DNA from: an uncultured Dechloromonas sp.
GTDB lineage: Bacteria; Pseudomonadota; Gammaproteobacteria; Burkholderiales; Rhodocyclaceae
DNA length: 64,000 nucleotides
Assembly (NCBI RefSeq): GCF_945957265.1
Contig: NZ_CAMFKO010000014.1
Span: forward strand, 1-64,000
Direction: 5' to 3'
The translations under genes were made by a program, and so were the position numbers. The notes under the pieces were generated by a model, which saw only the letters and a program-made list of their open reading frames with translations, ran no database searches and was not told the origin of the DNA. Positions 52,843-56,680 of this stretch are shown here, piece by piece (position 1 is the stretch's first letter; each line of letters starts with the position of its first letter).

Positions 52843-54097
52843 CCTCTGTCGCCGTTGCGTTCCACGGCGCCACTTTCAACAGCAGCACCATGCCCGGCAC
52901 GGCCAGGGCGGAACACAGCCAGAAGAAATTCAGCCAGCCCAGTTGTTCGACCAGCCAGCCGGCCGAGGCGTTGATGAAGGTGCGCGGCACGGCGGCCAGG
53001 CTGGTGAACAACGCCATCTGCGTGGCCGTATAGGCCGGATGCGTGGCGCGGGCGATGAAGGCGACGAAGGCCGCGGTGCCCAGGCCGACACCGAGGGCCT
53101 CGAGGCCGATGACGAAGGCCAGCGCGACGCGCTCGCTGGCGCCGATGCTGTCGTAGTGCCCCTGTGCGGCCAGCCAGGCGAAGCCGAAAATCGACACCAG
53201 CTGGACCACGCCGAACAGCCAGAGCGCCCGGTTGATGCCCAGTCTGACCATCCACAGGCCGCCGAGTAGGGCGCCGACGACAGCCGGCCACAAGCCGGCG
53301 TGCTTGGCGATCAGGCCGATGTCGGTCTTGGTGAAGCCCATGTCGAGGTAGAACGGGGTGGCCAGGGCGGTGCACAGGCTGTCGCCGAGCTTGTACAGGA
53401 AGATGAAGCCGAGGACCAGGACGGCGCCGCGCCAGCCTTGGCGTCCCATGAATTCGCGGAAGGGCTCGGTGACCGCTTGGCGCAGGGTCTTCGGCGCGCC
53501 CTTGACCTGGGGCTCGCTGACCAGCCAGGCCATGGCCATGCCGGGCAGCATGAAGGCGCCGGTGATCCAGAACACCTCGTTCCACGGCAGGCGGTCGGCC
53601 AGGATCAGCGACAGCGAGCCGGGAATCAGGCCGGCGATGCGGTAGGCGTTCACATGCACGGCGTTGCCGAGGCCGAGTTCGTTGTCGCTCAGGATTTCGC
53701 GGCGGAAGGCGTCGACGGCGATGTCCTGGGTGGCGGAGAGCAGCGAGAGCAGCGTCGCCAGCCACAGGATGGGCCAGATGTTTTCCTTCGGATCGAAGCC
53801 GCCGAGCGAGCCGATGGCGACCAGCAGGCCGATCTGGGTGAGCAGCATCCAGCCGCGCCGGCGGCCGAAGCCGGGAATGGCGTAGCGGTCGAGCAGCGGC
53901 GCCCAGATGAATTTCCAGGTGTAGGGAAACTGGATCAGCGCGAAGAAGCCGATGGTCTTGAGGTCGACGCCCTCGCTGCGCAGCCAGGCCGGCAGCAGGT
54001 TGAGCAGCAGGTAGAGCGGCAGGCCCGACGAGAACCCGGTGAAGATGCAGATCAGCATCTTCCGGGTGAGCAGGGCCGCGAGCCAGGCCGGCATCAA
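52826..54097 (-). CDS. ampG: AmpG-type muropeptide permease
   Basis: AmpG imports anhydromuropeptides from the periplasm for cell-wall recycling. The 423-residue protein is an MFS permease with about 12 helices and the AmpG signature region LICIFTGFSSGLPLYLLLNLLPAWLRSEGVDLKTIGFFALIQFPYTWKFIWAPLLDRY near the start, followed by GRRRGWMLLTQ and ATQDIAVDAFRREIL. It overlaps the metW stop by four bases, as the genes metX-metW-ampG form one leftward run seen in many beta-proteobacteria. Its product would feed beta-lactam sensing as well as recycling. Confidence 0.93.
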   Translation of the reverse strand: MMPAWLAALLTRKMLICIFTGFSSGLPLYLLLNLLPAWLRSEGVDLKTIGFFALIQFPYTWKFIWAPLLDRYAIPGFGRRRGWMLLTQIGLLVAIGSLGGFDPKENIWPILWLATLLSLLSATQDIAVDAFRREILSDNELGLGNAVHVNAYRIAGLIPGSLSLILADRLPWNEVFWITGAFMLPGMAMAWLVSEPQVKGAPKTLRQAVTEPFREFMGRQGWRGAVLVLGFIFLYKLGDSLCTALATPFYLDMGFTKTDIGLIAKHAGLWPAVVGALLGGLWMVRLGINRALWLFGVVQLVSIFGFAWLAAQGHYDSIGASERVALAFVIGLEALGVGLGTAAFVAFIARATHPAYTATQMALFTSLAAVPRTFINASAGWLVEQLGWLNFFWLCSALAVPGMVLLLKVAPWNATATEASRPA

Positions 54098-54705
54098 CGC
54101 TGCTGGGTCAGGCGATAGACCGCCAAACTGCCGAGGAAATTCAGTTCCCGCTCGTCATCGTTCCCGACCTTGTTGCCGCTTTCGTCGAGGACGTGCCGTT
54201 CGCGGATGATCAGGCCCATCCGCGCGCACAGCGCCTCGAAATCGAGCAGCGTGAAGAAGCGGACGTTGGGCGAGTCGTACCACTGGTAGGGTAGATCTTC
54301 CGACACCGGCATGCGGCCGTCGAGCACCGAGCGCAGGTTCTTCCAGTAGGCGAAGTTGGGGAAGGAGATCACCGCCTCGCGGCCGACGCGCAGCATTTCG
54401 CGCAGGACACCCTCGGTGTGGCGCACCGTCTGCAGCGTGCGCGACAGCACGACGTGGTCGAAGGACTGGTCGGTGAACTCGTCGAGGCCCTTTTCCAGGT
54501 TGCCCTGCAGCACGTTGATGCCGTTCTTGATGGCGGCCAGGATGTTGGCGTCGTCGATCTCGACGCCGACGCCGCGCACGCCGCGCGTGTCGATCAGGTG
54601 CTTCAACAGCGTGCCGTCGCCGCAGCCAAGGTCGAGGACGCGGTGGCCGGGCTCGATCCAGGCGGAAATGATGTCGAAATCGGGGCGTCCCAGCGTGTGC
54701 GTCAT
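54094..54705 (-). CDS. metW: MetW methyltransferase-fold protein
   Basis: MetW has a SAM-dependent methyltransferase fold and works with MetX in methionine synthesis in many bacteria. The 203-residue protein has the SAM motif [17 protein letters not shown] (about 21-37) and [28 protein letters not shown], and the family tail NEFGNLFGxxAVYRL-like ([13 protein letters not shown]). Its start overlaps the metX stop by four bases. Confidence 0.95.
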
Positions 54706-55832
54706 AGCTTGATGTTCCGCAGGTAGGCAGCGACGACGCCGTGATAATGGGCGTCGTCCATCAGGAAGGAATCGTGGCCGAAGTTGAGGTCGATTTCGGC
54801 GTACGACACGTTGCGGTTGTTGGCGAGCAGTGCGGCGACGATTTCCTTCGAGCGGGCCGGCGTGAAGCGCCAGTCGGTGGTGAACGAGGCGATCAGGAAG
54901 CCGGTGTCCGGGTGGCTGCGGGCCATGGCCTTGGTCAGGTCGCCGCCGTCGAGACGGGCCGGGTCGAAGTAATCGAGCGCCTTGGTCATCAGCAGGTAGG
55001 TGTTGGCGTCGAAATAGCCGGCGAACTTGTCGCCCTGGTAGCGCAGGTAGGACTCGACCTCGAACTCGACGTCGAAATCGAAGCCGAAGGAGCCGTTGCG
55101 CAGCTCGCGACCGAATTTCTCGCCCATCTGGTCGTCGGACAGGTAGGTGATGTGGCCGAGCATGCGCGCCAGGCGCAGGCCGCGCACCGGGCGGGTGTTG
55201 TGTTCGTAGTAGTTGCCGCCGTGGAAGTCGGGGTCGGTCAGGATGGCCTGGCGGGCGACGTCGTTGAAGGCGATGTTCTGCGCCGACAGCTTGGGGGCCG
55301 AGGCGATGATGATGGCGTGGCGGACGCGTTCCGGCTGGCTGATCGTCCACCGCATGGCCTGCATGCCGCCGAGGCTGCCGCCGATGACCGCTGCCCAGGC
55401 GTCGATGCCGAGCAGGTCGGCCAGCCGGGCCTGGGCTTCGACCCAGTCGCTGACGGCGACGATGGGGAAGTCGGCGCCCCACGGCTTGCCGGTGGCCGGG
55501 TTGATCGACGACGGGCCGGTCGAGCCGTGGCAGCCGCCGGGGTTGTTCAGGCCGACGATGAAGTAACGGTCGGTGTCGAGCGGCCGGCCGGGGCCGATGA
55601 TGTTGTCCCACCAGCCGATGTTGTTCGGGGCGTCGGCGTAGTGGCCGGCGACGTGATGGTGGCCGGACAGCGCGTGGCAGACGAGAATGGCGTTCGACTT
55701 GGCGGCGTTGAGCGTGCCGTAGGTCTCGTAGACCAGATCGTAGGCCGGCAGAACCCCGCCGCTGCGCAGCTGGAGCGGCTGGTCGAAGTGGGCGCGTTGC
55801 GAAGTGACGACGCCGACGGATTGTCCTGGCAT
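54702..55832 (-). CDS. metX: Homoserine O-acyltransferase MetX
   Basis: MetX acylates homoserine with acetyl-CoA or, in many beta-proteobacteria with MetW, succinyl-CoA. The 376-residue alpha/beta-hydrolase has [17 protein letters not shown] near 26-42, the LSGHHHVAG region, the nucleophilic Ser153 in [12 protein letters not shown], and late DSFLMDD...HY motifs with the catalytic Asp and His. Which acyl donor is used cannot be read with certainty. It is preceded by a promoter, a SAM-II riboswitch and a terminator (separate entries), which give end-product control by S-adenosylmethionine. Confidence 0.93.
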
Positions 55833-55841
55833 GCTGTTCCT

Positions 55842-55882
55842 GAAAACAAAAAACCCAGTTGGCCGAAAAACGCGAACTGGGT
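55842..55882 (-). terminator. Terminator in the metX leader
   Basis: ACCCAGTT (minus 55882-55875) pairs with AACTGGGT (minus 55860-55853) around a loop, followed on the minus strand by TTTTTTGTTTT. It sits between the riboswitch and the metX ATG at 55832, so it can act as the expression platform; part of its left arm directly follows the riboswitch. Confidence 0.8.
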
Positions 55883-55887
55883 GGTTC

Positions 55888-55940
55888 CCGTTTTAGCTGT
55901 ATTTATAAGCGCCCGCAATCAGAGCTCAAATCGGCGCGGC
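55888..55940 (-). ncRNA. SAM-II (SAM-alpha) riboswitch upstream of metX
   Basis: Read on the minus strand, the leader contains GCGCC-GATTTGAGCTCTGATTGCG-GGCGC: the P1 stem (55937-55933 with 55913-55909), then TTATAAATACAGCTAAAACG. This lines up base for base, stem by stem, with the known SAM-II aptamer: stem, U-rich loop, then ATAAATnnAGCTAAAA and GGG. It lies between a good promoter and a terminator in front of metX, a regular target of SAM-II in alpha-proteobacteria. Binding of S-adenosylmethionine is expected to reduce metX expression. Confidence 0.85.
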
Positions 55941-55964
55941 CGAACTTGCATTCGACGTTCATGG

Positions 55965-55993
55965 ACGATACCGGCGGCGCATCGAAATGTCAA
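55965..55993 (-). promoter_or_regulatory. metX promoter
   Basis: On the minus strand TTGACA (55993-55988) and TATCGT (55970-55965) are separated by 17 bases. The start site would fall near 55958, about 20 bases before the riboswitch, which fits the leader layout. Confidence 0.8.
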
Positions 55994-56074
55994 TGAAACG
56001 AGGCGCTTAAGCCGTTTCGGGTGGGCAAGTTTTGTTAGAATTCCCGGCTCGAACCCTTGGAAAGAATCTGGCCC

Positions 56075-56680
56075 ATGTTGGATCAACGAAGGCATCAGCG
56101 CATTCGCTTTGGTACGCCGCAGACGATCAGTATCGGTTTCGGCGGGCAGGTCGGCGCGGGGGTGATCGAGAATCTCTCGCTGTCGGGATTGATGCTGCGG
56201 ACGCCGATGCCGCTCGAGATTTCCCACAACATCGGCTGCGAGTTCAGCGTCTTCGATTCGCCGGTGATCGACGTTCCGGCCGTCGTCGTCAGCCGCGTCT
56301 GCGACCTGTACGGGGTGCGCTTCCAGCAGGGGCCGATCAGCCAGATCGTGATCGAGGACGCGATCAACGCGGCGCTGGCCAGCGGCAAGGCCTCCATCCT
56401 GTCCGTCCACGAACTGGGCGGGCGCAAGACGATGCGGATTACCGGCGGCTTGTCGGCCGTCCTGCGCAGCGATTTCATGCATGCCCTGACGCGCATGGGC
56501 GTCGATGAAATCGACCTCGAGGGCGTGACCGCGGTGGAGCAGGCGGGCCTGGCGCTGTGCCTGGTCGCCACCAAGCGGCACGGCGCGACGATCGGTACGC
56601 AATCCGCCTGCTTTGCCGAGGCCTGGGCACAAGCGCTGGCGGCGCCGGGCAGTATAGAACGACTGGACATCGACGGGTGA
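56075..56680 (+). CDS. PilZ - STAS domain protein
   Basis: The 201-residue protein has an N-terminal PilZ domain with the c-di-GMP motif: RRHQRIRFG near the start and NLSLSG near 34-39 (the R-x-x-x-R and D/N-x-S-x-x-G pattern), and a C-terminal STAS-like domain (about 110-200: LHELGG-type start, ITGGLSAVLRSDFMHALTRMGVDEIDLEGVTAVEQAGLALCLV). Both would make it a c-di-GMP-responsive partner-binding protein. The stop overlaps the start of the TonB receptor gene, so the two are cotranslated. The ATG at 56075 is preferred over a TTG 18 bases upstream. Confidence 0.82.
   Translation: MLDQRRHQRIRFGTPQTISIGFGGQVGAGVIENLSLSGLMLRTPMPLEISHNIGCEFSVFDSPVIDVPAVVVSRVCDLYGVRFQQGPISQIVIEDAINAALASGKASILSVHELGGRKTMRITGGLSAVLRSDFMHALTRMGVDEIDLEGVTAVEQAGLALCLVATKRHGATIGTQSACFAEAWAQALAAPGSIERLDIDG

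Follow-up and report, generated by a model that had tools for sequence, protein, structure and literature searches.

A probable SAM-II-type riboswitch ahead of metX-metW in an uncultured Dechloromonas, with a predicted antiterminator in its ligand-binding strand

The first SAM-II paper (Corbino et al. 2005, PMC1273637) already included a beta-proteobacterium, Bordetella bronchiseptica, among the organisms with this RNA, and it described promoters near P1, putative intrinsic terminators past P2, and a P2 helix exceptionally well supported by covariation. SAM-II elements with terminators in beta-proteobacteria were published from 2005 to 2007; the class is stated to be most common in alpha-, beta- and gamma-proteobacteria (PMC2704228), and the majority of its switches are called transcriptional (PMC6061858). 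A later study of Sinorhizobium SAM-II switches stated that the effects of the class on gene expression had not yet been studied before that work (PMC9373788). The preliminary description of the present locus held SAM-II to be mainly alpha-proteobacterial and often translational, and it drew its interest from finding a beta-proteobacterial member with a terminator. This reason for interest is not supported in view of what PMC1273637 and PMC6061858 state. Because the SAM-II kind is already known in beta-proteobacteria, the element in the window (the whole stretch of 64,000 nt that was analysed) is an ordinary member. A search for literature on the SAM-II riboswitch that names Rhodocyclales found none.

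With SAM-II as modelled by RF00521 and described in PMC1273637, the window element shares P1, the L1 motif GAUUUG, the UUGC/GCUAAA core, an upstream promoter, a downstream terminator and the association with methionine genes. It differs in its RF00521 score (23.6 bits versus 36), in a weak P2a, and in an extra 5' hairpin, here termed P0.

Another close system is the 'metXZ' element of Leyn et al. (2014, PMC4239095), reported in beta-proteobacteria and located before metXW in 30 of 35 genomes. Like the window element, it precedes metXW or metZ and has a possible pseudoknot and a terminator; its regions 1-6, compared by description only, fit P1, P2 and AUAAAU as they are worded there. The two are very probably the same element. 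However, Leyn et al. scanned their genomes with Rfam models and still called 'metXZ' new; in the available text it is not identified as SAM-II, and each genome is said to have one copy. In their speculation, the GC-rich regions 3 and 4 influence the terminator, whereas the pairing statistics presented below point to the aptamer 3' strand.

SAM-V has the same H-type pseudoknot, a closely similar binding core and a short P2a, but it is reported as translational (PMC6061858), while the window element has a terminator downstream. The metZ SAM-II switch of Sinorhizobium meliloti (PMC9373788) shares with the proposal made here a predicted end of transcription when SAM is bound. It is alpha-proteobacterial, and an antiterminator of the kind proposed here was not found in the available text of that paper. 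Likewise, the accessible parts of the SAM-II and 'metXZ' literature yielded no published description of the P0 hairpin, of a weak P2a or of the proposed antiterminator.

The metX leader and the class of its aptamer

On the minus strand, the leader contains, in order, a promoter, P0, the aptamer core and an intrinsic terminator, followed by metX-metW (Table 1). The layout given in the preliminary description (promoter, SAM-II aptamer, terminator, metX-metW) is therefore supported, and the letters it quoted for P1, followed by ATAAAT and AGCTAAAA, are those present. The metW ATG and the end of metX overlap by 4 nt. The closest MetX relatives found are Dechloromonas and Azonexus records, with 97% identity over the full length and 99% over partial sequences.

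Table 1. Features of the metX-metW leader and operon (positions in the window)
Feature	Position	Strand	Details
Promoter	55965..55993	-	-35 TTGACA 55993-55988; spacer 17 nt; -10 TATCGT 55970-55965
P0, extra 5' hairpin	55939..55956	-	GTCGAAT-GCAA-GTTCGGC, in the promoter/aptamer gap; -6.4 kcal/mol
SAM-II-type aptamer core	55892..55937	-	RF00521 match 55947-55876
Aptamer P1	55937-55933 / 55913-55909	-	strands GCGCC / GGCGC
Aptamer L1	55932-55926	-	GATTTGA
Aptamer P2 core	55918-55915 / 55897-55892	-	TTGC with GCTAAA
Antiterminator (predicted)	55867..55894	-	AAAACGGGAAC 55894-55884 with GTTCGCGTTTT 55877-55867; from pairing statistics
Intrinsic terminator	55843..55882	-	stem 55882-55875/55860-55853 (ACCCAGTT/AACTGGGT); loop 55874-55861; T-rich tail 55852-55843; stem with loop (55882-55853) -14.7 kcal/mol
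metX, homoserine O-succinyltransferase	54702..55832	-	start codon at 55832; NF047916 667 bits, cut-off 560
metW	54094..54705	-	TIGR02081 249 bits, cut-off 189.5

The promoter named in the preliminary description, TTGACA-17-TATCGT, was confirmed, and it is the sole promoter-like site within 55400-56300 (shuffle mean 0.0); judging from its position, transcription would start at about 55958. For comparison, the metX leaders were divided into an Azonexaceae type, to which the window belongs, and 18 'other' leaders (L054, L055, L058, L059, L062, L064, L066-L069, L072, L073 and L075-L080). Leaders were assigned by MetX identity and organism names, with the upstream sequences already known; L054 is labelled Azonexaceae, yet stands among the others. 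At least 9 of the 12 promoter consensus letters are present in all 56 Azonexaceae-type leaders with enough upstream sequence, the window included, and in 11 of the 18 others.

A default Rfam scan of the whole window lists no match. On the 251-nt leader stretch, RF00521 run as an E-value scan aligns end to end with 23.6 bits (E 0.0017), and RF01726 reaches 16.9 bits (E 0.74). The RF00521 (SAM-II) gathering cut-off is 36 bits, so that a default scan misses a SAM-II-type element with this score, and formal membership of the Rfam family does not extend to the window. This cut-off is a reporting threshold and not a structural feature, and the claim made here is one of homology and like working, not of an Rfam entry. 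The covariance search proposed in the preliminary description was thus negative in its default form and positive as an E-value scan, as well as in relatives of the window.

The core GAUUUG, UUGC and GCUAAA is intact in the window. In an alignment of 34 of 75 leaders, chosen for lower redundancy, most of L1, UUGC, the P1 3' strand and GCUAA are invariant, and the remaining core columns, among them the third A of GCUAAA, are conserved to at least 90%. The ligand contacts of SAM-V are named in PMC6061858, where SAM-II binding is called virtually identical and the two cores almost perfectly superimposable; by our own matching of positions, the conserved core letters would include the SAM-contact positions of SAM-V. 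The element also stands before methionine and SAM genes, namely metX-metW in the window and metX, metZ, metK and metH in relatives of the order (names from 10 of 20 downstream proteins examined; metH falls below its family cut-off because the reading frame ends at the locus edge). The window element is best described as SAM-II-like, with SAM as its probable ligand.

Helices, distribution and the P0 hairpin

The first alignment (34 of the 75 leaders) contains almost no covariation, its sequences being too conserved. From it alone a covariance model, R1, was built with P1 as the sole helix, and its matches gave an order-wide set of 117 rows (113 distinct) from 100 loci, L106 being left out. In the distinct rows, 99.6% of the P1 cells are paired and four of the five pairs show changes on both sides (0/500 shuffles), although these counts lean towards P1 because the alignment was fitted to the P1 of R1. 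A separate permutation test of P1 agreed (0/200).

The P2 core letters are near-invariant and complementary in more than one register; since they hardly vary, no covariation evidence comes from the P2 core. In the register examined, an additional P2 pair is absent from 17 of 33 rows, among them that of the window. As for P2a, the distal extension of P2, this helix is reported as 5 bp in 60% of SAM-II RNAs and as 2 bp in the crystallised metX one (PMC6061858), and the window could form a 3-pair CUC/GGG helix. Among 158 parsable aptamers (of 171 distinct), the mean value of their own pairing is -2.34 versus -2.30 for permuted partners (165/500), so that P2a is not supported as a covarying helix in the beta-proteobacterial set; in a positive control of 18 alpha-type sequences, a similar test gave -8.27 versus -7.22 (1/500).

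Of 80 homologous metX loci, 74 have the motif ahead of the gene, which makes 75 of 81 leaders with the window. The six leaders that lack it are L003, which begins inside the aptamer, L042, L063, L070, L071 and L074. RF00521 was run on 16 of the 80 loci and, at E <= 0.5, matched 12 of them, two above the cut-off (L076 with 45.7 bits and L069 with 44 bits; MetX identity 71% and 74%, respectively), with no match in L007, L016, L058 and L059. It also matched nine of 20 further loci of the order, and four of these exceed the cut-off: L103, with 45.2 bits, L088, L090 and L122.

R1 recovers the element of the window itself. In 300 genomes sampled from the order, R1 matches at E <= 0.01 in 229, while RF00521 does so in 142 and exceeds its cut-off in 51. 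In 299 genomes of the phylum, R1 finds 26 places in genomes outside the class; RF00521 matches overlap 21 of these, and in 17 cases the RF00521 score is above its cut-off (overlaps counted by hand from the two match lists). The five without overlap are one of two places in G315 and those in G551, G323, G316 and G305. In the reverse test, RF00521 has a match in 49 genomes outside the class; R1 agrees on the location in 20 of them and misses 29. By these match lists, the two models describe related RNAs that are far from equal, and many alpha-type members lie beyond R1.

These results bear on the possibility that the element is a separate RNA, the 'metXZ element', with a SAM-II fold and another ligand or a different way of binding SAM. 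Such an explanation would fit the window score below the RF00521 cut-off, the P2a without covariation support, the gap between 51 and 229 genomes of the order, the 29 genomes that R1 misses, and the new name given by Leyn et al. (PMC4239095) after their use of Rfam models. Against it, the core letters are kept, 21 of the 26 R1 places outside the class coincide with RF00521 matches, and relatives within the order exceed the RF00521 cut-off, and we consider a separate RNA unlikely. The SAM-II identity claimed in the preliminary description is instead supported, as SAM-II type, by the core letters, their conservation, the P1 covariation and the overlap of R1 with RF00521.

The P0 hairpin distinguishes the Azonexaceae-type leaders. 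Their P0 arms covary (49 distinct; mean duplex -9.95 versus -7.03 when permuted, z -10.5, 0/500), whereas arms at the P0 position of the 18 other leaders do not (66/500 permutations). The distance from the end of the -10 box to P1 is 22-27 nt in the Azonexaceae type (27 nt in the window) and 8-12 nt in 17 of the 18 others, the longer gap being occupied by P0; the sharpness of this contrast is partly chosen, since the grouping followed sight of the upstream sequences. As to what P0 does, stacking on P1 and protection of the 5' end are guesses.

Terminator, antiterminator and direction of control

The terminator claimed in the preliminary description was also found. Its stem ends 20 nt upstream of the metX ATG and is followed by a T-rich tail, and a hairpin with a T-rich tail occurs between aptamer and metX in 75/75 leaders, the window included, versus 44/375 mononucleotide shuffles. 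A simple terminator scanner found none in the window leader; it allows loops of 3-8 nt, and the loop here has 14.

With the terminator included, the promoter and terminator motifs, the aptamer core, the gene order, the conservation and the P1 covariation can all be read from the DNA of the window and its relatives. A chance resemblance without function would conform to the unremarkable fold energy of the leader (z -1.29) and to the lack of an Rfam match at the default threshold; the presence of the element before metX in 74 of 80 loci, the covariation of P1 and the terminator hairpin in every one of the 75 leaders make it extremely improbable.

The reading preferred here, with a probability of about 0.8, is that the element belongs to a beta-proteobacterial kind of SAM-II-type riboswitch and serves as a transcriptional OFF switch for metX-metW. 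In the proposed mechanism, P0 and P1 would fold first. When SAM is scarce, the aptamer 3' strand AAAACGGGAAC would pair with the downstream GTTCGCGTTTT, which takes in the last part of the terminator 5' arm, and with this antiterminator formed the polymerase would pass. When SAM is bound, GCUAAA and its neighbours would be held in the P2 pseudoknot and the antiterminator could not form; CCCAGUU would then pair with AACUGGG, and transcription would end before metX. The direction of control in this model is predicted, as is the antiterminator itself; its basis is that the aptamer tail contains the P2 3' strand, which should make the antiterminator and ligand-bound P2 mutually exclusive.

In the window, the predicted antiterminator comprises 10 pairs with one G.G mismatch (-10.1 kcal/mol). 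The terminator, at -14.7 kcal/mol, is more stable, and switching must therefore be kinetic. When the leader of the window is folded step by step from 55958, the antiterminator appears at 92-96 nt and the terminator once 106 nt are reached. When the RNA is truncated just short of the terminator 3' arm, the aptamer tail is the main pairing partner of the 5' arm and of the first nucleotides of the loop, with an expected 6.41 pairs on average (75 leaders, many of them near-identical) and 7.96 in the window. The P1 3' strand (GCGGGC) was considered as another antiterminator strand; a duplex with GUUCGC is possible at -9.1 kcal/mol, and this candidate was rejected with 0.98 expected pairs versus 6.41 for the tail. 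L007 is an exception, in which the P1 3' strand is preferred over the tail (4.66 versus 3.18).

A wider set was used for the pairing statistics. It leaves out 8 of the 117 rows that lack GCTAA, as well as rows of five loci that repeat the metX set, and 21 of 179 leaders have no terminator within reach. Over 132 distinct platforms, the aptamer tail pairs with the terminator 5' side at a mean of -11.62 kcal/mol, versus -7.58 with shuffled partners (0/100) and -10.72 with partners swapped among leaders (0/300). Swapping within the Azonexaceae type alone or within the other metX leaders alone is not significant (66/300 and 55/300, respectively); what drives the swap result is the remainder of the order (83 platforms, 0/300), together with differences between groups. 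The partner sequences themselves vary, with GTCCGC pairing with GCGAGGAC in L055 and GTTTTAGC with GCTAAAGC in L088 and L090.

In a comparison of equal 8-nt pieces, the aptamer tail pairs more strongly with the first part of the terminator loop than with shuffled pieces (0/200), and modestly more strongly than with the last part of the loop (-5.58 versus -4.63; stronger in 78, weaker in 42 and equal in 5 of 125 platforms). The sole large difference is that of the Azonexaceae type (-6.48 versus -3.84), and the 18 other metX leaders show none (-5.14 versus -5.16).

The terminator might instead be a constant attenuator, while SAM would exert its main effect on translation or on RNA stability, a model put forward for Sinorhizobium metA. 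For this gene, PMC9373788 validates a terminator past the SAM-II aptamer for which no SAM response was predicted, and the greater stability of the window terminator over the antiterminator points the same way. However, about 45-50 nt, which include the terminator, separate the end of the aptamer 3' strand from the Shine-Dalgarno-like AGGA of metX, and in the wider set the terminator 5' side complements the aptamer tail beyond shuffled and swapped partners; a constant attenuator is thus judged quite improbable, even more so than a separate RNA.

Beyond the OFF switch, a more far-reaching proposal, which we hold with slightly less than even confidence, is that most of the order carries a distinct SAM-II subtype, under-called by standard annotation, named separately as metXZ and devoid of a firm P2a. 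The ligand-binding 3' strand (GCUAAA and the next nucleotides) would be the antiterminator partner, and the Azonexaceae would have gained a 5' hairpin next to P1. If this is true, the ligand pocket and the switch would be one and the same strand. The genome counts of R1 and of RF00521 above its cut-off point to an annotation gap in the order, and the 'metXZ element' becomes linked to a class with known ligand and structure; furthermore, a concrete predicted antiterminator, open to mutation, is offered for the SAM-II class.

Further copies and side observations

The genome of the window contains a second SAM-II-like copy (L082:1563-1501, minus strand; G000:C24:14747-14809; R1 36 bits). It occupies the spacer between metK, which begins 49 nt further on, and a divergent lpxL/htrB-like gene (named by eye); no terminator lies within reach, and Rfam gave no match at E <= 0.5. 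In this genome as a whole, RF00521 has no match at E <= 0.001 and a single one at E <= 0.01 (E 0.0064), listed without its position.

In 15 of 100 loci (L095, L105, L111, L112, L125, L147, L151, L156, L159, L165, L169, L173, L176, L177 and L181), one SAM-II-like match is followed by another on the same strand, several of the second ones being partial or weak, with E up to 0.0026. The second match carries ACAACTTGC in 14 of the 15, as does the metK copy. Tandem SAM-II pairs are described in PMC9481103, which counts 44 of them; in some, the first member has a terminator and the second controls the ribosome site. In L133 and L141, an insertion between P1 and GCTAAA splits the aptamer, and R1 therefore reports two partial matches.

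Other RNAs were met in the same loci. Upstream of the metX leader of L069, a c-di-GMP-I-GGC match (L069:1052-1133, minus strand) scores 50.9 bits with a cut-off of 59. In L136, RF02424, a Burkholderia candidate sRNA, matches with 203.9 bits (L136:1466-1638, minus strand) on the strand opposite a SAM-II-like match that R1 scores at 34.6 bits and RF00521 does not find; in this one locus, RF02424 may be the wrong strand of a SAM-II-like leader or a real antisense RNA. Finally, an unexpected target appears in L150, where a SAM-II-like aptamer (L150:1361-1301, minus strand) lies 62 nt before a gene for threonine ammonia-lyase (ilvA).
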